A stretch of 64,000 nt of DNA from an uncultured Armatimonadota bacterium (GTDB lineage: Bacteria > Armatimonadota > Fimbriimonadia > Fimbriimonadales > Fimbriimonadaceae). Positions 2,469 through 62,090 of this stretch are shown one piece after another; the first letter of the stretch is position 1; every line of letters starts with the position of its first letter. The stretch lies in the NCBI GenBank assembly GCA_903899015.1, contig CAIUHP010000078.1:62001-126000 (forward strand), in the 5' to 3' direction. The notes beneath the pieces were generated by a model, which was not told where the DNA came from, ran no database searches, and was given only the letters and a program-made list of their open reading frames with translations. The position numbers were made by a program, and so were the translations under genes.

Positions 2469-2921
2469 TCACTCTGTGCTCACCTTAACTGCTTCTCCTA
2501 AAATTGCGGCATGCAACGTGTGCCACGGGAGCGTCGCACACTTGATGCGTACCGGATATTCTCGGACTCCCGCTAAAACTTCAAGGTCACCGAGGTCGGG
2601 ATGCTCCGCAACTTCGCCGGTAGCGGTTACCATTTGCTGAAACTCTCGGAAGATGGCGTCAACTTCGGCAAGGGTCTTCCCTTTGATGGTTTCCGTCATC
2701 ATGGAAGCGCTTGCGGTGGAGATAGCACAGCCACTTCCTTCGAAAGTTACTTCTTCAACCCTACCGTCATGGGTATGAATGTAAACGGTGACGTTATCTC
2801 CGCAAAGCGGATTGTGTCCCTCAGCCGAACCCGTTGGTTCTTCGAGCTTTCCACGATTGCGCGGACGCTTGTTATGGTCAAGAATGACCTCTTGATATAG
2901 CTCTCGTAAATCCATGCTCAT
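2469..2921 (-). CDS. sufU: SufU sulfur-transfer / scaffold protein
   Basis: SufU (150 aa) accepts persulfide sulfur from SufS; in Firmicutes it is a zinc-dependent sulfurtransferase. The ligand residues are visible: C40 and D42 in PLCGDNV, C65 in GSGCAIS and C128 in IKCATLPW. The length and the roughly 20-residue insert between the second and third cysteines, compared with IscU, are typical of SufU. The start overlaps the stop of sufS by 4 bases (ATGA), so the pair is translationally coupled, in line with their partnership. Confidence 0.95.
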   Translation of the reverse strand: MSMDLRELYQEVILDHNKRPRNRGKLEEPTGSAEGHNPLCGDNVTVYIHTHDGRVEEVTFEGSGCAISTASASMMTETIKGKTLAEVDAIFREFQQMVTATGEVAEHPDLGDLEVLAGVREYPVRIKCATLPWHTLHAAILGEAVKVSTE

Positions 2922-4210
2922 CCGAACATCTCCTTGACCATTAATACACCGTCCACTAATCGATCAATCTCTTCTACGGTGTTATAGAACGCGATGGATG
3001 CTCGTGCGGTCGCGGGAACTCCTAAGCGCTTCATTAACGGCATGCAGCAATGGTGTCCAGCGCGGATCGCAATTCCTTTGTGATCAAATACCGTTCCTAT
3101 GTCGTGGGGGTGAGCGCAATCCATTGTGAAGGCAAGAATGCCAGCCTTTTCCTTGGCCGTACCCGTGATTCTTACTCCGTCAATCTCACTCAGTCGCTTC
3201 ATGCCATAGGAAGTCAATTCGCTTTCGTAATTGCTGATTCCTTCAAATGCGGCATCAAGCGCAAGGCCCAAACTCATGTCCGGCGCTTGAAGTAGTCCTC
3301 TCCCGAGCCCAGCGAGATAGTCAATGGCAGCGCCCAGTCCAATGACGCCCGCAATGTTGGGCGTCCCTGCTTCAAACTTGTAAGGAAGATCGGCATAGGT
3401 CGAGCCATCAAAACTTACGGTATGGATCATGTCTCCACCCCCTTGGTAGGGTGGCATGGCTCGAAGCAAGACTTCTTTCCCGTACAACACTCCAACTCCA
3501 GTTGGTGCATACATCTTGTGGCAGCTCAGAACGTAAAAGTCGGCATCCAGGGCTTGAACGTCAATCCGGGTATGAGGACCGGCCTGTGCACCGTCGACAA
3601 GGACAACGGCTCCGACTTGATGGGCCTGAGCAATCATCCGTTGCACGGGATTGATCGTTCCAAGCGAGTTGCTGACGTGTACGATGCCGACGATTTTGGT
3701 TCGTTCCGAAAGTAACTGACCGTAAGCCTCAAGATCAATTTCACCTTGATCGGTGATAGGAATCTGGCGGACAATCGCACCGGTTTGCTGGGCGACCAAC
3801 TGCCACGGGATGATGTTGCTGTGGTGCTCCATCGTCGAGAGCAAAATCTCATCTCCCGGCTTCAGGTTTTGTCTCCCGTAAGACTGAGCGACGAGATTGA
3901 TGCTGGCAGTGCATCCAGCCGTAAAGATCACTTCATGAGAAGATGCGGCATTCAGAAACACCTGGGTCTTTTCACGTGCGACATCGTATTTCTGGGTCGC
4001 TAACTGACTAAGATAGTGCACGCCCCGATGGATATTCGCGTTTTGTTGCCGATAATATTCAGACTGCGAATCGATCACCAAGTGGGGTTTCTGGGATGTC
4101 GCACCGTTATCTAGATACACCAGAGGATAACCATTTACGAGGGTGGCCAGAATGGGAAAGTCCTTTCTGATTGCCTCAATATTAAGTGTTCTATGCGCTA
4201 TTGCGTTCAC
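2918..4210 (-). CDS. sufS: SufS group II cysteine desulfurase
   Basis: This PLP enzyme removes sulfur from L-cysteine to give alanine and an enzyme persulfide for Fe-S assembly. The PLP lysine is K232 in VLSCHKMYAPTGVG, and the persulfide cysteine is C388 in IRAGHHCCMPLM (C389 is adjacent). The ATMEHHSNI-type cofactor segment reads STMEHHSNIIPW here. At 430 residues it is about 24 longer than typical SufS (about 406). The extra length sits near residues 303-326, in the linker between the large and small domains. It is coupled to sufU by overlap and starts 2 bases after the unknown gene upstream. Confidence 0.95.
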   Translation of the reverse strand: MNAIAHRTLNIEAIRKDFPILATLVNGYPLVYLDNGATSQKPHLVIDSQSEYYRQQNANIHRGVHYLSQLATQKYDVAREKTQVFLNAASSHEVIFTAGCTASINLVAQSYGRQNLKPGDEILLSTMEHHSNIIPWQLVAQQTGAIVRQIPITDQGEIDLEAYGQLLSERTKIVGIVHVSNSLGTINPVQRMIAQAHQVGAVVLVDGAQAGPHTRIDVQALDADFYVLSCHKMYAPTGVGVLYGKEVLLRAMPPYQGGGDMIHTVSFDGSTYADLPYKFEAGTPNIAGVIGLGAAIDYLAGLGRGLLQAPDMSLGLALDAAFEGISNYESELTSYGMKRLSEIDGVRITGTAKEKAGILAFTMDCAHPHDIGTVFDHKGIAIRAGHHCCMPLMKRLGVPATARASIAFYNTVEEIDRLVDGVLMVKEMFG

Positions 4211-4212
4211 TT

Positions 4213-4677
4213 TTAACCTTCCCTAGCACTGAATTCAAATAGTTGGAGCCATTCTTGTCGCTGACGTTCCAACAATTCGGGTGGATTGTTCTTATAGGTT
4301 TGCTCCACTTGATCTACGAACGCCTCTGGCGAATGAGCCGAGAGCACGTGGTTCGTTCCCGCTTGCCGAAACCAGTACTTGCTGTTCCAGAAATCACCTT
4401 CTCGGCGATGGACAATTGCATGCCACAGAGATCCGACCGATCCAGGAATCGCCTGACAGATGGTGTGCGACCGATCAATTTCATCGATGTACAACCACAA
4501 TGCCGCAGTAACCGATGGATTGGCTTGAATTTCGCTTTGCGACACGATTGATTCAACGAGCCTGACGATGTTTGGATCGATGGTCCGAGTAGGTACAAGT
4601 TCCGGCATCGCTTGCTCAAGCGGAAGCGCTTCAAATAGAGGCTTCGTGAGAGATGCGAGCGTGTCCGGAACCGGCAT
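4213..4677 (-). CDS. Uncharacterized protein inside the SUF operon
   Basis: This 154-residue soluble protein sits between sufD and sufS, 4 bases after sufD and 2 bases before sufS, so it is co-transcribed. It has no signal peptide, membrane segment or Fe-S cysteine cluster (it has a single cysteine near residue 74). The most distinctive segment, LWHAIVHRREGDFWNSKYWF at about residues 85-104, resembles an uncharacterized family I recall from Planctomycetes and Bacteroidetes, where a His-Arg-Arg-Glu and Lys-Tyr-Trp core is conserved. I know no function. Its place suggests a link to Fe-S assembly, but operon hitchhiking is possible. Confidence 0.8.
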   Translation of the reverse strand: MPVPDTLASLTKPLFEALPLEQAMPELVPTRTIDPNIVRLVESIVSQSEIQANPSVTAALWLYIDEIDRSHTICQAIPGSVGSLWHAIVHRREGDFWNSKYWFRQAGTNHVLSAHSPEAFVDQVEQTYKNNPPELLERQRQEWLQLFEFSAREG

Positions 4678-12428: not shown

Positions 12429-14090
12429 TTACACCTTCGATAGGTCGGGACGCCGGAGATGGAATCCAAAATGCCCCTGAATCGTCTTTGCAATCGTCAG
12501 CAGTTCATCGTCGCGATAAAGGCGGCCAATCAACGATTTTGCCAGGCTATTTCCGTTTCCATCATCGCCGAAGGGTAGCGCAACTTGCGGATGGCCACAG
12601 TAGTTGCAGTGACCCAAGATTTGCCCCGCCACACCGTTGCCAACGACAACATCCAAATCCCCTAGTTCCTGCTCAAACTTGCGCATCAACAGGGTTCGTG
12701 CTCTTTGAGCTTGTAGGTATTCCACCGCCGGGATATAGCGGCTCGCTCGGAACGTTTCCGGCCAGCTTGAATTCTTAAGCTGGTGAATTTCCGATCCTCG
12801 AGTAAAGGCATCAAAGGCGGAGCCTGCTTCGGCATCAAGTATTTGATTGACCCCATCTGGAATTGGACTGAATTTGGCGATTCTGACTGAAGCCCCTAGA
12901 TCCTTAAAGATCTTGAGAACTGGATCACTTGCCATCGAGGTTTCACTACCTATCCAACCAACCTTCAGCTTCTTGAAATCGACCCGATGTGGGAATTCAA
13001 ACGCCCGGTCAACCGATGCAAAATCATTGGGATCCGATCCTGTGATCGCGGCAAAAACCAGAGCGCAATCTTCAACCTCGCGACAGATAGGTCCGACTTT
13101 ATCCATGGTGTAGCTCAGACCCATCGCGCCGTAGCGGCTCACTCGGCCATAAGTGGGGCGGAAACCAGTGACGCGGCATCGTACGCTTGGCGAAGTGATG
13201 CTTCCGTAAGTTTCAGTACCGATGGAGAAACCAACTAATCCCGCCGCGGTGGAGCAAGCTGAGCCCGCACTTGAGCCGCTTGAGCCCTGCTTCGTGTTCC
13301 AAGGATTCTTGGTCATTCCGCGGAACCAAACATCTCCCTGAGCAAGGGCACCGTTGCTCAGTTTGGCGAGTAGAACCGCACCCGCCTCTTCCAATTTGTT
13401 GACGACGGTCGCGTTAAAATCGAAGACTTGGTGTTCGTAGGGGTCCGCTCCCCATGTTGTTGGGATTCCTTTCGTGCTAAACAGATCCTTGATTCCGTAA
13501 GGAATTCCGTGCAATGGGCCCCGAATCTTCCCTGCCTTGATTTCCGCGTCAGCTCGAGCAGCTTGGGCGAGCGCCAAGTCCTCACATAAGGTCACGACGC
13601 AGAGGAGTCGGTCACCATATTTCTTCAACCGAGCAAGATAGAGGTTGGTGAGTTCCAGCGAAGTAACTTGGCGCGTCTGAATAAGCTGTGCGAGTTCTCG
13701 TACTGAGAGAAATGCGAGGTCATCTTCCTTGATCGGGCGTGTTAGGGTTACCTGCGATCGCTTGGCAACTACTCTTGAGCGAGGTATCGAGCCGCCACCA
13801 AGAGGATGGAACGTCGTTGAGGGTTCGATTGTGAAATCGATAGGCTGATTTCGAATACCCGCATACCCTGCACGGGCCGCACGAACTTCGCCAAGAACCT
13901 TCTTGCGCTCTTCTTCCGAGAAGCTGATTCCTGCAATTTTCTCCATTGATTTCAGGTCATCGAGCGAGACATCATCTTTTGGCGCAGTAGGCGCTTGTGC
14001 GATCGCGCCCACGGGAAGAGCGGTTGTTGCAGCAGCGATGAGCATCGTTCGCAGCATTTCTTTGCGGGTGAGAGATTGATCTAGTGCCAT
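12429..14090 (-). CDS. Amidase-signature enzyme with export signal
   Basis: This 553-residue enzyme of the amidase signature family (GatA-like fold) hydrolyses an amide bond. The Ser-cisSer-Lys triad is visible: K201 in GIPYGIKDLF, cis-Ser S271 in the GSSGSS stretch and nucleophile S297 in GTETYGSI (TYGSI replaces the usual TGGSI). The N-terminus has TRKEML followed by a hydrophobic stretch ending GAIAQA, a Tat-like or Sec signal, so the enzyme is probably exported. That rules out a role in tRNA amidation. The substrate is unknown. A roughly 110-residue region precedes the catalytic domain, longer than in soluble amidases. Confidence 0.92.
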   Translation of the reverse strand: MALDQSLTRKEMLRTMLIAAATTALPVGAIAQAPTAPKDDVSLDDLKSMEKIAGISFSEEERKKVLGEVRAARAGYAGIRNQPIDFTIEPSTTFHPLGGGSIPRSRVVAKRSQVTLTRPIKEDDLAFLSVRELAQLIQTRQVTSLELTNLYLARLKKYGDRLLCVVTLCEDLALAQAARADAEIKAGKIRGPLHGIPYGIKDLFSTKGIPTTWGADPYEHQVFDFNATVVNKLEEAGAVLLAKLSNGALAQGDVWFRGMTKNPWNTKQGSSGSSAGSACSTAAGLVGFSIGTETYGSITSPSVRCRVTGFRPTYGRVSRYGAMGLSYTMDKVGPICREVEDCALVFAAITGSDPNDFASVDRAFEFPHRVDFKKLKVGWIGSETSMASDPVLKIFKDLGASVRIAKFSPIPDGVNQILDAEAGSAFDAFTRGSEIHQLKNSSWPETFRASRYIPAVEYLQAQRARTLLMRKFEQELGDLDVVVGNGVAGQILGHCNYCGHPQVALPFGDDGNGNSLAKSLIGRLYRDDELLTIAKTIQGHFGFHLRRPDLSKV

Positions 14091-14146: not shown

Positions 14147-14923
14147 ATGGAGAATCGAGTTCTAGAAGATGTAATTGCTCTTAGCTTAAAGCTGGGAGAC
14201 CCCGCAAATGATCTCGCGATTTTGGCGGAAGGGAATGCAAGTGGGCGCGTGGATAGCGACCATTTCTATGTCAAGGCCAGCGGTTACTCGATGCGCACGA
14301 TGACTGCAGAAGGGCTCACCCTTGTAAAGTTTGCTCCCATCCTTCAAGCTCTCAACGGCCCAGATCTAAGTGACGCACAAGTTCGAGATTTGCTCTCCGA
14401 GTGTCGCGCGGAAGGCAACCAAGCTCCTCGTCCATCGGTCGAGACCTTCATGCACGCTTATCTGCTCTCGTTGCCCGGAGTGCAGTACATCGGCCATACC
14501 CACCCAACACCGCTCATAAGTTTGCTCGGCATAGCGGGGTGCGAAGAGATCGCGACCCAGCGTATCTTTCCCGATGAAATTGTTTGTTGTGGTCCCGCGA
14601 CTGCTTTTGTTTCCTACACGGACCCGGGCTTGCCACTGGCGAGAGCGATTCAATCAAGCGTGGAGAGGTTTGTGGAAGTTCACGCGATGATTCCCAAAAC
14701 GATGTGGCTCCAGAATCATGGCCTCATCGCGATTGGCAAATCAGTTGGAGACGTCGAGAGTGCAACGTTTATGGGGATCAAAGCGGCTCGAGCCTGGTTA
14801 GGAGCTCTTTCGACTGGAAGAGAATTACGGCCGCTAAGTCCAGAAAATGTTGCGAGGATCCACACTCGTCCTGACGAACATTATCGGCAGGAACTCTTGT
14901 GGACGATGAAGCAGCGCAGTTAG
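14147..14923 (+). CDS. Class II aldolase/adducin family protein
   Basis: This 258-residue protein has the fuculose-aldolase fold. The zinc ligands H117 and H119 (IGHTHP) and H191 (LQNHG), the likely catalytic E99 (SVETFMHA) and the phosphate-loop segment AEGNASGRV near residue 28 are present. These proteins cleave or epimerize phosphorylated sugars, for example L-fuculose-1-phosphate or ribulose-5-phosphate; substrate cannot be set from sequence. A link to the L-fucose isomerase at 7367 is attractive but they are not in one operon. A TATCCT box at 14134-14139 sits 7 bases before the ATG. The stop overlaps that of the convergent secretin by 4 bases. Confidence 0.88.
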   Translation: MENRVLEDVIALSLKLGDPANDLAILAEGNASGRVDSDHFYVKASGYSMRTMTAEGLTLVKFAPILQALNGPDLSDAQVRDLLSECRAEGNQAPRPSVETFMHAYLLSLPGVQYIGHTHPTPLISLLGIAGCEEIATQRIFPDEIVCCGPATAFVSYTDPGLPLARAIQSSVERFVEVHAMIPKTMWLQNHGLIAIGKSVGDVESATFMGIKAARAWLGALSTGRELRPLSPENVARIHTRPDEHYRQELLWTMKQRS

Positions 14924-16371
14924 TTCTGCGGTGCTGCTTCATCGACAATTCGGGGAGTGATCATGATGATCGTCTCAACCTTCTTTCGATTCTTGGTCCG
15001 CTGAGTGAAAATCTCCCCAAGTACAGGGATATATCCTAACAGTGGGACTCGGATGATTTGATTATCTGTCGTCTGCTGAATCAAGCCCGCAATAACGATC
15101 GTCTCTCCCGACTTTACTCGGACATCTTGCGTGGATCGTCTAACCTGGGAAGAAGGGTTTCCGTTCTGTAGAACCACCGCGTCACTGACTTCAGGCTCAA
15201 GGTGCATCGTAACCGTTCCGTCATTTCCAATGAAGCCCGTGAATTTCAAGATAATTCCGGTATGGATTAACTGAATCTGGCTCGTTGGGAACGTTGTACT
15301 TCCACTTAAGAGTGAGAAGTAAGCGTCTGTGCCGACATTTACATTTGACTCACGACCTTCAATGGTCATCAGTCTTGGGTTGGCGCGTAGTGTCGCCTTG
15401 TGGTCGTTGATGAGCGCCTGAATCTTTGCGATGTCACTGAAGCCAGCCTTTTGGTAGTTGAGGCTGAGGTCTGTTCCAAGAGAAAACTTCTTGGTTGCCC
15501 AGCTAAATCCAGTGTTGAGACCATCGTCGGCAGCGACTTCTGTGATGAGAGCCTCAACGATGATCTGTCGACCCGGTTTGTCGGCTTGAGCAATGTCCGC
15601 TAGGATCTTATCAAGCAGTTGTCGAGGCGCGGAGACGCCGATTGAGTTTGTTGTTGGATCGACTGAGATATAGGGCTTGTAAGTGGCGCTCAACAGTGCC
15701 TGAATCGATGCGGCCTTCTGGTTGTGAACGGTGTAAATCTGGGTTTCTGCGAACTCGCGGAACAAGTTGGACTCAGGCAGGGCTTTACTGATTAAGTACA
15801 AACCATTGGCCTTCTTCTTCCAATAAGCCCCTGCCATAAGAGCAAGCGTGTCCATCGCCGAATCGAGGGTTGCATCCTTAAACTCAACGGTTATGTTCTG
15901 TTCCTTGACAGTGTCGTCGGGAACGATTGTGACTCCGGCTTGGCTAGAGACGTCACTGATCACACTACGAATATCTTGACTGTCGTAAAGGTTCGTTATG
16001 AGGCCGTTTGATGCGGTTGGCTTGGGCGCTTGTTTTGGCTTTGCCTGGCTTGCATCGGTTGGTGGCTTGTCTGACGTAGCTGGCTTCGCCTGGTTGGCAT
16101 CGGTCTTCTCTGAGGCGGTGTCCGAACCCGTGACCTTCGGCTTGGGAAGTTCCATGGTGAACTTTCCGTTATCAGGCACGCGGGTCGCAGTTGCTATGAC
16201 CGTCGTTGGCAGTGAGAGCACGACCGATCGAGGAACGTCCTTCACCTTGTGAAGCTTAGAGATAGCGGAAGAAAGGAGGGATCCAGATAGCGAATGGTGT
16301 CCCATTGAGCCGACCGAAAGTGAGGTAATGGCTAGTGCAGCGATGGATGCACGGTAACGTAATCGGTTCAC
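14920..16371 (-). CDS. Secretin-family outer membrane protein
   Basis: This 483-residue protein is of the type II/III secretin family (GspD/PilQ). Order: signal peptide (about 1-25), a linker rich in Gln-Ala-Lys-Pro repeats (about 88-120), an STN/N0-like domain (AGVTIVPDDTVKEQNITVEF), an N1-like domain, then the secretin C-domain with VEALITEVAADDG and the signature VPLLGYIPVLGEIF followed by KKVETIIMITPRIV. It is shorter than GspD or PilQ and has no AMIN domain. None of the ATPase, inner-membrane platform or pseudopilin genes of T2SS or T4P lie nearby. It is last in a three-gene operon with an Ig/PapD-like protein and a small secreted protein. Confidence 0.9.
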   Translation of the reverse strand: MNRLRYRASIAALAITSLSVGSMGHHSLSGSLLSSAISKLHKVKDVPRSVVLSLPTTVIATATRVPDNGKFTMELPKPKVTGSDTASEKTDANQAKPATSDKPPTDASQAKPKQAPKPTASNGLITNLYDSQDIRSVISDVSSQAGVTIVPDDTVKEQNITVEFKDATLDSAMDTLALMAGAYWKKKANGLYLISKALPESNLFREFAETQIYTVHNQKAASIQALLSATYKPYISVDPTTNSIGVSAPRQLLDKILADIAQADKPGRQIIVEALITEVAADDGLNTGFSWATKKFSLGTDLSLNYQKAGFSDIAKIQALINDHKATLRANPRLMTIEGRESNVNVGTDAYFSLLSGSTTFPTSQIQLIHTGIILKFTGFIGNDGTVTMHLEPEVSDAVVLQNGNPSSQVRRSTQDVRVKSGETIVIAGLIQQTTDNQIIRVPLLGYIPVLGEIFTQRTKNRKKVETIIMITPRIVDEAAPQN

Positions 16372-17985
16372 TTACTTGCCTCCTTTCTTCTTCTTGACTG
16401 GTGGTGGAGCGACATTTTTCTTAGGAGTTGGGATGGTGAATGGCACTAGCTTCTTCTCGTAAAGGTCTTCGGTGTATTGGTAGCTGATTTCAACTGCGTA
16501 TGCACCTGGTTTAAGGCCGAGGGGGAGCATGAGTCGGTTGTGAAGTGTGGAGCCCGGGAGGATGCCACCATCACCTAAGGGAGGAACTTCCAAAGTAGCC
16601 ACTCCGGCTAATCCACCTTCCATAACGACGGCAGAAGGGTGGGGCTGAAGGGCGATGTTGCCAAGGTTGCTTACTTCGTAATCGACACTAATCGGAACTC
16701 CGCTCACGTATCCAATTTCCTTAGCGACGATGGAAAGCTTGGGTTGAAATCGAACCTTCACCGTCTCGGGAACTCGAGCATTGCCGTAAACCTCTTCTGA
16801 CATCGAATCGCCAGTGGCGGTTCTTGCTGAGATTGCAAACCAATTATCACCCGAAGCTCCGTCATCAAGGGAAACGGTCACTCGCACGGTTGTGGTTCGC
16901 TTGGGAGCGATGGTAATTGTATCAGGCGTTAAAGTGATGCCGATGGGAGGAACCGGGCCGTCATCCAAAATCTGGAGTGCTCCGTTTGGCTGCTGAGTGA
17001 GCTTATGGGCAGTCAATCCAATGGTCAGCGGATTATCGCTTACGTTCGTAAATTTAATGGCGACCATCCGCTTGGAGTTCGGAGGAAGACTCACTTGCAA
17101 ACGACCGGGGTCCACTACAAACGGAGGCAATGAAAGCAGGGCTTTCTCGGTAAGGGGTTCGCTCTTGTTATCTCGGACGATGAAGTCGGCAACAATCGGT
17201 CGAAAAGTTCGTGTTCCCGCCTGGCAGATGGCTTGAACGCGGTACCGTCCGTCGGCCAAGACCGGAATCGACAGGTGAAGTTTGCGATTCGTCTCTGGAT
17301 AAAGGTTACGGTCGGAGTCGTATCGGGAAGCGACCAACTTACCGGTAGTCAGATTCCGAACCTGTACGTTGGCGCCAACGACCAAAAAGGCGTTGCTGGA
17401 GTTCAAGAACGGGACTTCGACAAAGTTCTCTTTCGTTGAAGCCGTTAACTCCGGTGAACCGAACTTGAGGTCCGCTTTTGGCTGGGTTCCGACGTACAGA
17501 ATGATCGGAATTTGATATTGTGTTCGAATGACACTGTTGTCACCGCTGATCGTGGGCACGATAGTTCCAAGACAGTAATAAGCTCCTGGTTCCGTCCCTT
17601 TGGGGATCGTGCATTTCAGGGGAAATACTTTCTGAGCTCTTGGCGAGACCGAGCCGGTAAATTTTGTTTCGGCAAACCAAGTAGAGCAGTCGTATTTGGT
17701 GGCTTGACCCAGAATTGGCCCGTAAGTCCACTCTTTGTAGGTAACGGGATTAATTTCGAGTTGCACCGAAAGAATGCCTGGTTCGAGATTGGTTACTCCA
17801 ATAGGCAAGGTGATCGTCGCACCAGCTTTTGCAGGTTGACGAAACATAACGGGCACAACCGCCATGCCTCTAAGTCCTTGCACCTCTGACTGCGCGAATG
17901 CGCAAACGAATAGGGTTAGGAGTCCGAGGCTTATGGAGATTTTGCTAATGTTTCTAGTTCGTGATTCCTCAGTTGATCGTAACAC
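16372..17985 (-). CDS. Secreted tandem Ig-like (PapD-chaperone-like) protein
   Basis: This 537-residue protein has an N-terminal signal peptide ending AFAQS and three Ig-like modules: about 40-255, 280-400 and 405-520. The first two have the layout of periplasmic fimbrial chaperones (VVPVMFRQPAKAGATITLPI; SPRAQKVFPLKC followed by a P-x-G-T-x-x-G-x-Y strand). The C-terminus is very basic (PVKKKKGGK). It begins inside the end of the 200-residue gene (17-bp overlap) and the secretin starts immediately after its stop, so the three form one unit. A role in holding or delivering the small secreted protein to the secretin is inference. NEW3-like or other beta-sandwich repeats are the alternative. 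Confidence 0.7.
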   Translation of the reverse strand: MLRSTEESRTRNISKISISLGLLTLFVCAFAQSEVQGLRGMAVVPVMFRQPAKAGATITLPIGVTNLEPGILSVQLEINPVTYKEWTYGPILGQATKYDCSTWFAETKFTGSVSPRAQKVFPLKCTIPKGTEPGAYYCLGTIVPTISGDNSVIRTQYQIPIILYVGTQPKADLKFGSPELTASTKENFVEVPFLNSSNAFLVVGANVQVRNLTTGKLVASRYDSDRNLYPETNRKLHLSIPVLADGRYRVQAICQAGTRTFRPIVADFIVRDNKSEPLTEKALLSLPPFVVDPGRLQVSLPPNSKRMVAIKFTNVSDNPLTIGLTAHKLTQQPNGALQILDDGPVPPIGITLTPDTITIAPKRTTTVRVTVSLDDGASGDNWFAISARTATGDSMSEEVYGNARVPETVKVRFQPKLSIVAKEIGYVSGVPISVDYEVSNLGNIALQPHPSAVVMEGGLAGVATLEVPPLGDGGILPGSTLHNRLMLPLGLKPGAYAVEISYQYTEDLYEKKLVPFTIPTPKKNVAPPPVKKKKGGK

Positions 17986-18571
17986 CGATGTTTCCTGTCC
18001 CTACAAGTTTGTAGGCACCCATCGCTTTCTCGGTTAGGTTTAGCGTACGCGTAAAAACTAACACAAGGTTGCCGTCCGTGGGTATTTGAGTCTCGACCAA
18101 AGTCAAAGATTGACCGCTAAAGCCTGAATCCGTTCCACTAACGGGCCCACTTACCAAACTTCCAATGTGCGAAGGGGTGCCCTGGTAAAGCGCCATCGAA
18201 TAGGTGATGCTTCCCATAACTGATCCAGACGAATTACCGACCATTAAAGGCTTAAAAGAATTGGCAGTAAACGTAATAGGCCGGTTTGTGTTTACTGCAA
18301 TAGCGTTTGATTCCACCTGGCTGGTGGCTGATCCAATACCAGTGACGTTGAAAACGCCACCAAAATTGCCGCTCACGCTGACATGCGTCACGTATGATTG
18401 GCTCGGTTTCTTGTTGCGGCTTTGAGCGTCCGCACCCAAAGTGTTGATGTGGTTGGCTCGATTCCAAGCCTGAATTTGCGCTGGATCATACAAAAAGGCA
18501 CGTTGCGCAAAAGGGCGTTGAGCCCCACGCGATGTGGCCGTCAGTATGGCGAGAGCAGCAAAATGCAGCAT
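17969..18571 (-). CDS. Small secreted beta-rich protein (possible structural subunit)
   Basis: This 200-residue protein starts MLHFAALAILTATSRGAQ, a short signal peptide. The mature part is rich in Gly, Ser, Thr, Asn and Val with alternating beta patterns and has no cysteine or catalytic motif, as in adhesin or pilus subunits. It is the first gene of the operon with the Ig/chaperone-like protein and secretin, and overlaps the next gene by 17 bases. I do not recognise a Pfam family. That it is the exported substrate of the other two is inference from gene order. Confidence 0.7.
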   Translation of the reverse strand: MLHFAALAILTATSRGAQRPFAQRAFLYDPAQIQAWNRANHINTLGADAQSRNKKPSQSYVTHVSVSGNFGGVFNVTGIGSATSQVESNAIAVNTNRPITFTANSFKPLMVGNSSGSVMGSITYSMALYQGTPSHIGSLVSGPVSGTDSGFSGQSLTLVETQIPTDGNLVLVFTRTLNLTEKAMGAYKLVGTGNIGVTIN

Positions 18572-18714
18572 CTTGAAATCAACCCAAACGTTCTACAGTC
18601 CCTGAAGCCTAATTGTATGTCATTTTAGCGGTTAAATGCGTCACATCTTTCCATGACGCAAAATGGGCACAGACTTTGAGGGCGATTTTTGGTCAATCGG
18701 CGCTAAGATATTCC

Positions 18715-20895
18715 ATGCCGTTTCAAATGCGTTCATGCGCAGTTTTGACCGCCCTCCTTACCGCTTCAAGTGCAATTTTCGCTGAGATGTCACCTCCTAA
18801 CACAGCAGCCAAAGCAGTCATTGGCACCACTCAGCCAACACTTGAGATTTCCTATAACGGGCACAAGATTTTCACGGGTCATTTCAGCGTCCAGAGTAGT
18901 CACGCCCGATGGCAAGACGTTTCCATGCGTTCCACCACCGATAAAGGCAGGAACAGCGAAGTCACTCAAAAGATCACTTTCTATGCCCCTTCCGGCACCG
19001 AAATCAAGCTCACCGGTTCGGTTTTAGGTTCGGGAGAGGCCTTCGCAGCGGAGACAGATTCCCCCGCTCAAGAACGATTTAGGTTGGTTCGCAACTCGGT
19101 TGGACTCGTTACGAACCTCCGAAACAATGCCATTTATGATCGGCACTCCGACTGGATGTTAGAGGGACTAGGAGATGGTGCAACCGAGATCCAGCCTACA
19201 AAAGGCTCGGCTTCTGAGACCCAATTTTACTGGTCTACGAGCGGTGCTGAACTCACACTGACATTCCGGCCGCTCTACTACCAAAAACATAAGAACATCG
19301 AATATTTCCAGCCATGGAACTATAAAGTCTGGAAAGGATCGGTAACCGGTTGGTGCTCATGGTGGGCCTACTTCACCGACATTCACGAACAAGATGTTCA
19401 ACGCATCAGTAAGATTTTTGGTGAGAAGCTTCGTGACTTTGGCTATCAGTACATTCAAATTGACGATGGATACCAATCGAGTAACGGCGGCCTTCCCAAA
19501 GACTGGTTAAATACCAACGATCACTTCCCTAGTGGCCTCAAACATCTGAGTGAAAGCATCTCTAAGGAAGGTCTCAAGCCTGCGCTTTGGACAAACGTTC
19601 ACTTCGGCGATGCTGGTTTCGTGGCTCAGCACCCTGACTGGTTTGTTCAAGATAGCGACGGTAAGAACCATAAAGGTCCGTGGATCGATTACGGCTTGGA
19701 TGCCTCGAATAAGAAAGCCGTTGACGCAGTGATTCGACCGACTTACCGCGCCCTCCACGAACAAGGTTGGGAATACATCAAAGTCGACGCGTTGCGTCAT
19801 TTGCTCTATGATGCGTCGTACCCAACCCGTGACACTTTTGCGAAGAAGGGTGTGCGGCTAGAAGATGCCTTTCGCACGTACTTGCAAACCATACGGCAAG
19901 AAGTCGGTTCTGGCACCTACATGCTTGCTTGTTGGGGAGTTCTGCCCGAGGCAGTAGGCATTGTAAATGGCTGCCGATTAGGCGGCGATGGGTTTGGACC
20001 TTCAACCCTTCAGCAGTACACCTCCTGGAACAATGTCGTTTGGCGTAATGACCCTGACCATTGCGACATTAAGCCTTTTGATCATCAAACCAATCAAATT
20101 ACTGACGGCGAAGAGAGGATTCGGCCCGTCTTGGTATCGATGGCTGGAGCACAACTCTTACTTAGCGACAAGCCGGAAGTGTATGAAAACGACGCGAACC
20201 TGGAAGGGGTCAAACGCGCCAGTCCGATTCTTTTTACAGTTCCTGGCCAGCTGTATGACTATGATTCCGTTAAAACGGACCACCTCAAGCAGGGACTTAG
20301 AAATCAAAAAGGCGGAGCGGATTCTGGTCCAATTGATGCAGACCAAAAGGGTGAAGTCTGTCCTTGGTGGATGCTGGACATCAACCAAGCCACTGGGAGT
20401 TGGTCCGTACTCACTCACATGAATTGGCACACCACTCCGATGCCTCAGAGCGAAGTCCAATTCCACGACTTGGGGCTCCCCAAAGAGAAATATTCTGTGT
20501 TCGAGTTTTGGTCAAAGAAGTATCTCGGCGACTTCGAAGACACTTTTACCGCTCGAGCACTTGATCCCAAGGACGTTGCGACTTATGCCATTCGCAAGAC
20601 ACTGGATCACCCACAGATTTTGTCGACCAGTCGACACATTAGTCAGGGCGCCGTCGACCTCAACGAAGTTGCCTGGCACTCACATGCGAAGACTTTGAGC
20701 GGAACGAGTAACGTGGTCAAGAACGATCCATACAGCCTGTTCGTGCGACTTCCAAAAGGGTTCGGGGTCAAGGGAGCCTCATTCGGCGGTCATCGTGCCG
20801 AAATTCGAACCGAAGAGCACATGGCAGAAATCAAAGTCGTCCCAGATAAGACTGGCACCCTATCCTGGCGAATCGAGTTTGTGCACACCTCTTGA
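18715..20895 (+). CDS. GH36-type alpha-galactosidase-like enzyme, exported
   Basis: From the ATG at 18715 the protein has 726 residues. The start was chosen because it opens a signal peptide (MRSCAVLTALLTASSAIFA) absent from the longer frame at 18613. A beta-rich N-domain is followed by a TIM barrel with the clan GH-D features: WCSWWAYF, YIQIDDGYQ, the probable nucleophile D358 in YIKVDAL and the probable acid/base D425 in GGDGFGP. It resembles GH36/GH27 alpha-galactosidases and related raffinose-synthase-like enzymes; the precise substrate is open. Its TGA overlaps the TTG start of the helicase gene. Confidence 0.85.
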   Translation: MPFQMRSCAVLTALLTASSAIFAEMSPPNTAAKAVIGTTQPTLEISYNGHKIFTGHFSVQSSHARWQDVSMRSTTDKGRNSEVTQKITFYAPSGTEIKLTGSVLGSGEAFAAETDSPAQERFRLVRNSVGLVTNLRNNAIYDRHSDWMLEGLGDGATEIQPTKGSASETQFYWSTSGAELTLTFRPLYYQKHKNIEYFQPWNYKVWKGSVTGWCSWWAYFTDIHEQDVQRISKIFGEKLRDFGYQYIQIDDGYQSSNGGLPKDWLNTNDHFPSGLKHLSESISKEGLKPALWTNVHFGDAGFVAQHPDWFVQDSDGKNHKGPWIDYGLDASNKKAVDAVIRPTYRALHEQGWEYIKVDALRHLLYDASYPTRDTFAKKGVRLEDAFRTYLQTIRQEVGSGTYMLACWGVLPEAVGIVNGCRLGGDGFGPSTLQQYTSWNNVVWRNDPDHCDIKPFDHQTNQITDGEERIRPVLVSMAGAQLLLSDKPEVYENDANLEGVKRASPILFTVPGQLYDYDSVKTDHLKQGLRNQKGGADSGPIDADQKGEVCPWWMLDINQATGSWSVLTHMNWHTTPMPQSEVQFHDLGLPKEKYSVFEFWSKKYLGDFEDTFTARALDPKDVATYAIRKTLDHPQILSTSRHISQGAVDLNEVAWHSHAKTLSGTSNVVKNDPYSLFVRLPKGFGVKGASFGGHRAEIRTEEHMAEIKVVPDKTGTLSWRIEFVHTS

Positions 20896-61352: not shown

Positions 61353-62090
61353 TCAATAAGCCTGATACTCGCCGTACAGTTCGTGGCCTTGGAAAGGGGC
61401 TCGGGCTTTACTGAAGGCACTCCACTTAGCGTGTCCTTCAGCGTAAATGCCGTTGCTTCCTTTCGTATGACGATCGGGAGAAATAGCGATTGGGTTGACG
61501 ATGTCGGATGCGCTGCCGGGGATTTCAGTTTCGCCGAGCCAGGGATGGAAGTGAACATCGCAAAAGTTGTCTCGACGCTCAGCGATATAGATCGATTGAG
61601 CAGGAGCTGGAATGTCGCTGGAAGTTGCGCCAAACAGATAGTAGGCATTTAACAAAAAGCTGCTCAACGGCCCTGGAGGCGAGGCAAGAGGATTTGAACC
61701 AATACAATTCTGATTAGCATCCAGCAACTTCAATCCGTGAGGATCAGGATCGGTTGGGCATACGTAGAGCTGAGTCTTGTTTGTATCCTTGCTTGCGACA
61801 TAGGGCAAAAGTTTGTCGAACGGCGATCCGAAGTCGATTGCCTCAAGTTGAGCTTCGTTATCGTCAACAAGCGGGTTGAACGTTGAAGGATGCTCTTGCG
61901 GGTATCGATCATCGTAATCGCCAAGATAGATCATGAGGGCGACCCCAATTTGACGACCGTTTGAGAGACATTGCGTCTTCTTGGCAGCTTCTTTTGCTTG
62001 CGCGAAAACGGGGAAAAGGATGGCGGCGAGAATCGCGATGATGGCAATCACGACGAGTAATTCGATAAGGGTAAATGCGTTCTTTCTCAA
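61353..62090 (-). CDS. Type IV prepilin-like protein (DUF1559/H-X9-DG type)
   Basis: This 245-residue protein begins [20 protein letters not shown], a prepilin signal cleaved before the Phe, with the long conserved N-helix reaching [19 protein letters not shown] (about 25-44). This version of the helix is characteristic of Armatimonadota and Planctomycetes. The rest is a secreted head with a few cysteines and, late, a segment [21 protein letters not shown] typical of the H-X9-DG class (here with EGH in place of DG). It is probably a pseudopilin or surface protein. It reads convergently with the oxidoreductase and is 92 bases downstream of the gene at 62183. Confidence 0.92.

Follow-up and report, generated by a model that had tools for sequence, protein, structure and literature searches.

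The window analysed here, a stretch of 64,000 nucleotides (G000:C78:62001-126000, on contig CAIUHP010000078.1) from the genome of an uncultured Armatimonadota bacterium of the family Fimbriimonadaceae (assembly completeness 99.87 %), carries a trio of genes for a small exported protein, an exported chaperone-like protein made of immunoglobulin (Ig)-like domains, referred to below as the Ig protein, and a secretin (Table 1). All three were open reading frames (ORFs) lying where an earlier note on this DNA had described three compact genes with overlaps or zero spacing. The genes for the small protein and the Ig protein share 17 bases, the Ig gene has a GTG start, and the secretin gene, also with a GTG start, opens at the base right after the end of the Ig gene (gap 0). 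The loci of the closest relatives (L021, L022 and L023) were packed similarly, with an overlap of 4 bases between the Ig and secretin genes and 17-20 bases from the small gene. A second copy of the trio (L020) is present on contig C39 of the same genome, with the small gene at 240-881 and the Ig gene at 1170-2759; its secretin gene is broken into two overlapping ORFs (2756-3868 and 3840-4274), owing to a frameshift or to faulty assembly.

Table 1. Genes and predicted features of the trio (positions in the window; residue numbers are those of the protein concerned)
Feature	Position	Strand	Basis
Small exported pilin-like protein, 200 aa	17969..18571	-	ORF; N-terminus read as hydrophobic; model
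Candidate donor-strand motif R-x-F-x-Y, residues 24-28	18488..18502	-	Conservation; putative role
Pilin-like beta domain, residues 57-200	17972..18403	-	Model; chain stops on last strand
Exported chaperone-like (Ig) protein, 537 aa, four Ig-like domains as two tandem two-domain units	16372..17985	-	ORF, model, hhalign
Domain 1, residues 41-165, first of unit 1	17491..17865	-	Model
Last strand of domain 1, residues 153-165, candidate donor strand	17491..17529	-	Alternating hydrophobic columns; role inferred
Domain 2, residues 170-271	17173..17478	-	Model
Domain 3, residues 283-404, first of unit 2	16774..17139	-	Model, fold match with domain 4
Domain 4, residues 415-518	16432..16743	-	Model, fold match
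Lys-rich C-terminal tail, similar across genus-level homologues	16375..16401	-	Sequence
Secretin, 483 aa	14920..16371	-	ORF, Pfam, clade with 27 other Ig-linked secretins
N0/STN-like region, residues 130-196, weak	15784..15984	-	Pfam matches below cut-off
Secretin_N domain, residues 210-269	15565..15744	-	PF03958, E 1.6e-7
Secretin pore domain, residues 319-477	14941..15417	-	PF00263, E 5.5e-37

The Ig protein was matched in six of 61 genomes of its own and related species. A profile of 11 rows (A1) matched at least 39 of 291 Armatimonadota genomes and at least five of 20 genomes of its own genus, these counts being lower bounds as up to five candidates per genome were scored. An Ig gene followed by a secretin gene was found in at least 22 of the 291 genomes, representing 13 families, and the association is thus more than chance; the co-occurrence elsewhere that the earlier note had proposed looking for does exist. 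Fifty-two Ig ORFs were tabulated, comprising 30 with a length of 500 aa or more, 14 with two domains and eight that were partial or odd, with L106 (E 7.7e-4) standing outside the table. A secretin gene lay downstream on the same strand and within 4 kb of 27 of the 30 four-domain Ig proteins (≥500 aa), and three of the eight partial or odd ORFs had a secretin. The three four-domain exceptions were L030, where the contig ends after 242 bases, L103, where only a secretin fragment is present, and L077. In L074 (G214:C88, 5695-9542) a single secretin follows two tandem four-domain Ig genes, and upstream of two other trio copies (L025, 10363-11769; L026, 8862-10166) there is a gene with a stretch that reads like a LuxR-type helix–turn–helix. 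P0002 had no match among plasmids or phages. An alignment-based scan of genome contigs returned seven loci, all from Fimbriimonas sp. or uncultured Armatimonadetes and at places already found, and a first scan of genome contigs returned no relative; these scans do not demonstrate absence outside the Armatimonadota.

The model of the Ig protein (pLDDT, the predicted local distance difference test, 81.5; eight sequences) contained four beta domains; the earlier note had described the protein as exported and chaperone-like but had counted three modules. The two halves of the protein aligned with each other by hhalign (prob 99.9, E 8.8e-33), with matches of domain 1 to domain 3 (E 3.4e-23), of domain 2 to domain 4 (E 1.7e-16) and none between domains 1 and 2, indicating that the Ig protein arose when a unit of two domains was duplicated in tandem. 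A profile of 29 rows (A6) matched EfmWxLIP1 (9i1y, 9i25; E 3.3e-13), a protein to which WxL surface proteins bind, over profile positions 39-286, which correspond to the first half. For the second half (domains 3 and 4) the nearest fold was again that of EfmWxLIP1 (9i25_C; Z 18.1, 5.2 Å over 225), the next being CfaA (4ncd, Z 13.6), CsuC (5d6h, 12.9) and SfaE (12.6), and then FimC, Caf1M and PapD, these chaperones together spanning Z ~12-13.6. The root-mean-square deviations of 4-6 Å in these fold matches probably reflect the angle between the domains. The Foldseek list for the Ig protein was headed by chains of the ciliary central apparatus, and its function can therefore not be named from the fold alone. 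All Pfam matches of the protein were below the cut-off (fn3_5, E 2.3e-5; WxLIP_PGBD, E 0.019; WxLIP_HBD, E 0.025), and there was none to the Pfam PapD family. Conserved basic columns were present in the alignment, listed by sequence rather than by placement on the cleft, where PapD has the basic pair Arg8/Lys112.

The last strand of domain 1 is the candidate donor strand of the Ig protein. Among 30 homologues, the hydrophobic fraction at residues 153, 155, 157, 159, 161, 163 and 165 was 0.90, 0.80, 0.93, 0.90, 1.0, 1.0 and 1.0, respectively, and at the residues in between it was 0.17-0.47, except for 0.80 at residue 162. Most of this alternating hydrophobic run is missing from the equivalent strand of domain 3. 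Within the domain, the hairpin that precedes the strand was modelled with relatively low confidence (blocks 141-160, pLDDT 74 and 68). In a published account of WxL proteins (PMC10599100), the WxLIP hairpin is described as disordered when alone and as predicted by AlphaFold to insert into the WxL sandwich and complete it; by analogy, the hairpin and strand of domain 1 may play a similar role.

The model of the small protein (pLDDT 74, eight sequences) was confident mainly at residues 61-180 and at the C-terminus. The top VIA matches of residues 57-200 were pilin domains, namely PapG (3me0_B, Z 9.1, 3.3 Å over 110; 6cd2_B, Z 9.0, 2.3 Å over 104), the CFA/I tip adhesin (8.9), FimG (8.5), CfaB (8.3) and CsuA/B (8.0). 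The small protein and the pilin chains end together when aligned, so that strand F would be the end of both, with no strand G, and the C-terminal Asn was invariant in 10 homologues. The motif R-x-F-x-Y is located in a low-confidence N-terminal extension of ~40 residues (pLDDT <60); Y28 was invariant among the 10 genus-level homologues and F26 was found in at least nine of them, and the extension may act as a donor strand. Pfam and NCBIfam contained no family for the small protein, and when its profile was searched against PDB sequences the single match (E 5.5) was a chance one. Structure prediction, which the earlier note had recommended as a way of detecting donor-strand features, yielded PapD/WxLIP-like domains in the Ig protein and, in the small protein, a domain that resembles pilins and has strand F as its last strand.

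Among 59 secreted ORFs lying upstream of Ig genes, 26 had a terminal-strand motif of the G-x-Y type ([GA]-x-[YF] followed by 7-14 residues at the C-terminus), compared with 21 of 245 control ORFs (Fisher p 1.2e-9), and some of the 26 resembled chance matches. The motif-bearing ORFs included longer ones (L076, 522 aa; L077, 374 aa), whose sizes would be as for tip adhesins or large WxL proteins, and tandem subunit genes occurred at some loci (three in L024). The recurrence of this motif, the pilin-like fold and the multiple subunit genes per locus all speak against a simple export gate, in which the secretin would let out monomeric, soluble subunits brought to it by the Ig protein as a periplasmic carrier, with no donor-strand chemistry. 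Such a gate would suit the wide differences between the small proteins of different families, and the donor-strand evidence is by resemblance; it is nevertheless the least probable of the explanations considered here and is regarded as very doubtful.

Among 22 small proteins that were scanned, no Pfam family was common to any two and none had a WxL Pfam match at E values up to 5; the 50 fold matches listed for the small protein of the window also included no WxL-domain chains, which is evidence neither way. The Pfam result bears on the main rival explanation, a surface complex of the WxL/WxLIP kind in which the Ig protein stays in the final complex holding the small proteins and the secretin lets them out, with no polymer being formed. 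EfmWxLIP1 is the sole sequence-level relative of the Ig protein with a known structure and also its best fold match. The Gram-positive WxL clusters, which combine a DUF916-DUF3324 protein with small and large WxL proteins, share with the trio a compact arrangement with a small and sometimes a larger subunit, one WxLIP being accompanied by a small and a large subunit according to PMC10599100. The trio differs from these clusters in having an outer-membrane pore, in the form of a dedicated secretin, in its small proteins, which have no WxL Pfam match, and in its doubled Ig protein, which has no C-terminal membrane helix in the model and ends in a Lys-rich tail. In addition, the candidate donor motif in the extension of the subunit suggests exchange from subunit to subunit. 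The trio is not a WxL cluster, as no WxL proteins and no membrane helix were found, and a non-polymeric complex of this kind, while deserving consideration, appears rather unlikely.

The secretin clearly belonged to the Secretin family (PF00263, 127.4 bits, cut-off 27.5; Secretin_N, 31.9 bits, cut-off 28.2), with matches below the cut-off in the N0 region (STN, E 0.027; GspD N0, E 0.022; FecR_C, E 0.0018). The secretin-family profile matched the structures of GspD, PilQ, RcpA, phage export and type III secretion system secretins, and in terms of family the protein is thus an ordinary pore. All PF00263 matches in 11 genomes were listed, and the tree built after extraction of the ORFs had 82 rows, comprising 28 Ig-linked secretins, 50 others and four references; the split secretin of L020, the fragment of L103 and four loci repeating other places were left out. 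In this tree, which was made by a quick method with no bootstrap and is rooted arbitrarily, all 28 Ig-linked secretins fell on one side of a single branch (SH-aLRT, the Shimodaira–Hasegawa-like approximate likelihood ratio test, 98) and the 50 others outside it, giving one label change compared with a mean of 23.6 after shuffling. Distances between Ig proteins correlated with those between secretins (25 pairs; Mantel r 0.69, with none of 2000 permutations as high). Judged by these sequence relationships, the secretin is dedicated to the Ig protein and stands apart from further secretins encoded in these genomes, rather than being of the ordinary type II secretion system (T2SS) or type IV pilus (T4P) type. 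Among the remaining secretins, those placed closest to the Ig-linked clade, on a weakly supported branch, came from tandem triplets of secretin-like genes in four distant genomes (L150, G119:C26; L152, G246:C67; L153, G062:C31; L162, G253:C2).

Secretion ATPases (PF00437) were encoded on contigs C48, C30, C109, C73 and C28 of the genome, with a further match below the cut-off on C101, and platform proteins (PF00482) on C30, C48, C109 and C79. Neither family was found on C78, which carries the trio, or on C39, which carries the second copy, in agreement with the earlier note, which had seen no T2SS/T4P ATPase or platform nearby. The usher family PF00577 had no match in the genome and was above the cut-off in one of the 291 Armatimonadota genomes. 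The ATPase and platform genes on other contigs would be needed if the trio were an accessory of a T2SS or T4P, with the secretin borrowing this machinery to secrete the small protein, and the secretin does share its pore family with T2SS GspD and T4P PilQ, whose structures it matches. Its clade, however, contains none of the secretins of these genomes that are not Ig-linked, and both trio copies of this genome are on contigs with no ATPase or platform genes, so that an accessory role is also considered very unlikely.

The two-domain Armatimonadota relatives (~265-390 aa) are homologous to each half of the 537 aa protein (hhalign E 5.5e-34 and 3.5e-28). None of the 14 had a secretin downstream, whereas a large protein (500-970 aa) was encoded shortly after 12 of them; three such proteins were scanned, and they possessed C-terminal CarboxypepD_reg and SdrD_B-type domains and had no usher match. 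Small secreted proteins are encoded upstream in both groups, whereas the two-domain genes adjoin the gene for a large protein and the trio adjoins a secretin. The two-domain loci are a candidate for an usher-like system outside the Pfam usher family. A WxLIP/PapD-like two-domain protein with a neighbour of 650-970 aa was noted at L091, L092, L093, L096, L097, L098, L099, L101, L102 and L105, and small secreted beta-rich proteins lay upstream of this L091-L105 set of genes.

Ushers are the known exit of donor-strand fibres in outer-membrane bacteria, and the known systems with a secretin involve either an ATPase or a phage particle. The combined evidence tends to favour, with modest confidence, a chaperone–secretin system consisting of a pilin-like subunit, a doubled WxLIP/PapD-like chaperone and a dedicated secretin that replaces the usher. 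In this system the small protein would be the subunit, an incomplete beta sandwich with an N-terminal extension able to act as donor strand. The Ig protein would be a periplasmic chaperone binding the subunit by donor strand, the long alternating-hydrophobic strand of domain 1 entering the subunit groove. The subunits would then pass through the secretin, as a dedicated outer-membrane exit, and polymerize into a surface fibre or chain, driven by donor-strand exchange and not by an ATPase. The suggestion in the earlier note that a chaperone-like protein and a secretin form an exit route for a surface fibre is thus retained in its core, with a secretin taking the place of an usher beside a chaperone, while export of a fibre as such is still putative.

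Compared with chaperone–usher systems (archaic Csu, class 5 CFA/I, type 1 and P pili), the trio has two-domain Ig units whose model resembles the chaperones in fold, a small protein whose model resembles pilins and would likewise end on strand F, tandem subunit genes at some loci and no ATPase on its contig. It differs in the adjacent secretin, in a genome with no PF00577 usher and in a chaperone that is doubled in tandem and has no significant sequence match. The trio belongs neither to the chaperone–usher systems, as there is no usher, nor to T2SS/T4P, as there is no ATPase or platform on its contig, but may work like chaperone–usher or WxL systems. Searches of the open PubMed Central library turned up no account of fibres being exported by a chaperone together with a secretin, and the combination suggests an undescribed way of carrying or building surface proteins across the outer membrane.

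Several observations weigh against a chaperone–secretin system. The halves of the Ig protein gave nothing significant against six Escherichia coli K-12 chaperones by hhalign (prob 20.5 % at best), and neither did the small proteins against 16 E. coli K-12 pilins (prob <1 %). The VIA Z scores of 8-9 for the small protein barely exceed those of common beta sandwiches, a Pyrodictium cannula protein scored like the pilins (Z 8.7), and the best Foldseek E value of this moderate model was 1.6e-3. The extension motif and the domain 1 strand are candidates picked out from sequence, with presumed binding partners. The Mantel correlation is partly explained by common descent. Finally, L077 encodes a four-domain Ig protein with no secretin in the remaining 1.8 kb of its contig, and at L026 the upstream region encodes no small secreted protein.

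The broader proposal that surface fibres of donor-strand subunits are built through a secretin with no ATPase, linking the WxL system with the chaperone–usher pathway, is tentative, being plausible but somewhat short of probable. If true, it would mean that a donor-strand system can exchange its exit gate, with a secretin in place of an usher, and that there is a separate way of building pili. A relative of the Gram-positive WxLIP has been found in outer-membrane organisms, and a common origin of WxL surface complexes and chaperone–usher pili becomes testable.

A link between the trio and the fimbriae that gave the genus its name, raised in the earlier note, was rejected. The Ig profile had no match in 15 of the 20 same-genus genomes, including the only single-contig one, and in the F. 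ginsengisoli genome paper it is type IV pilus genes to which the fimbriae are related.

The neighbouring genes of the trio, named by reading only, were an alpha-galactosidase-like gene on the other strand upstream (18613-20895) and, beyond the secretin, genes resembling those for an aldolase (14147-14923) and an amidase (12429-14090). A promoter and terminator scan of the trio locus gave sites that were not above the numbers in shuffled sequence. The sole prepilin-like ORF detected by a motif scan of the window (61353-62090) is ~43 kb from the trio.

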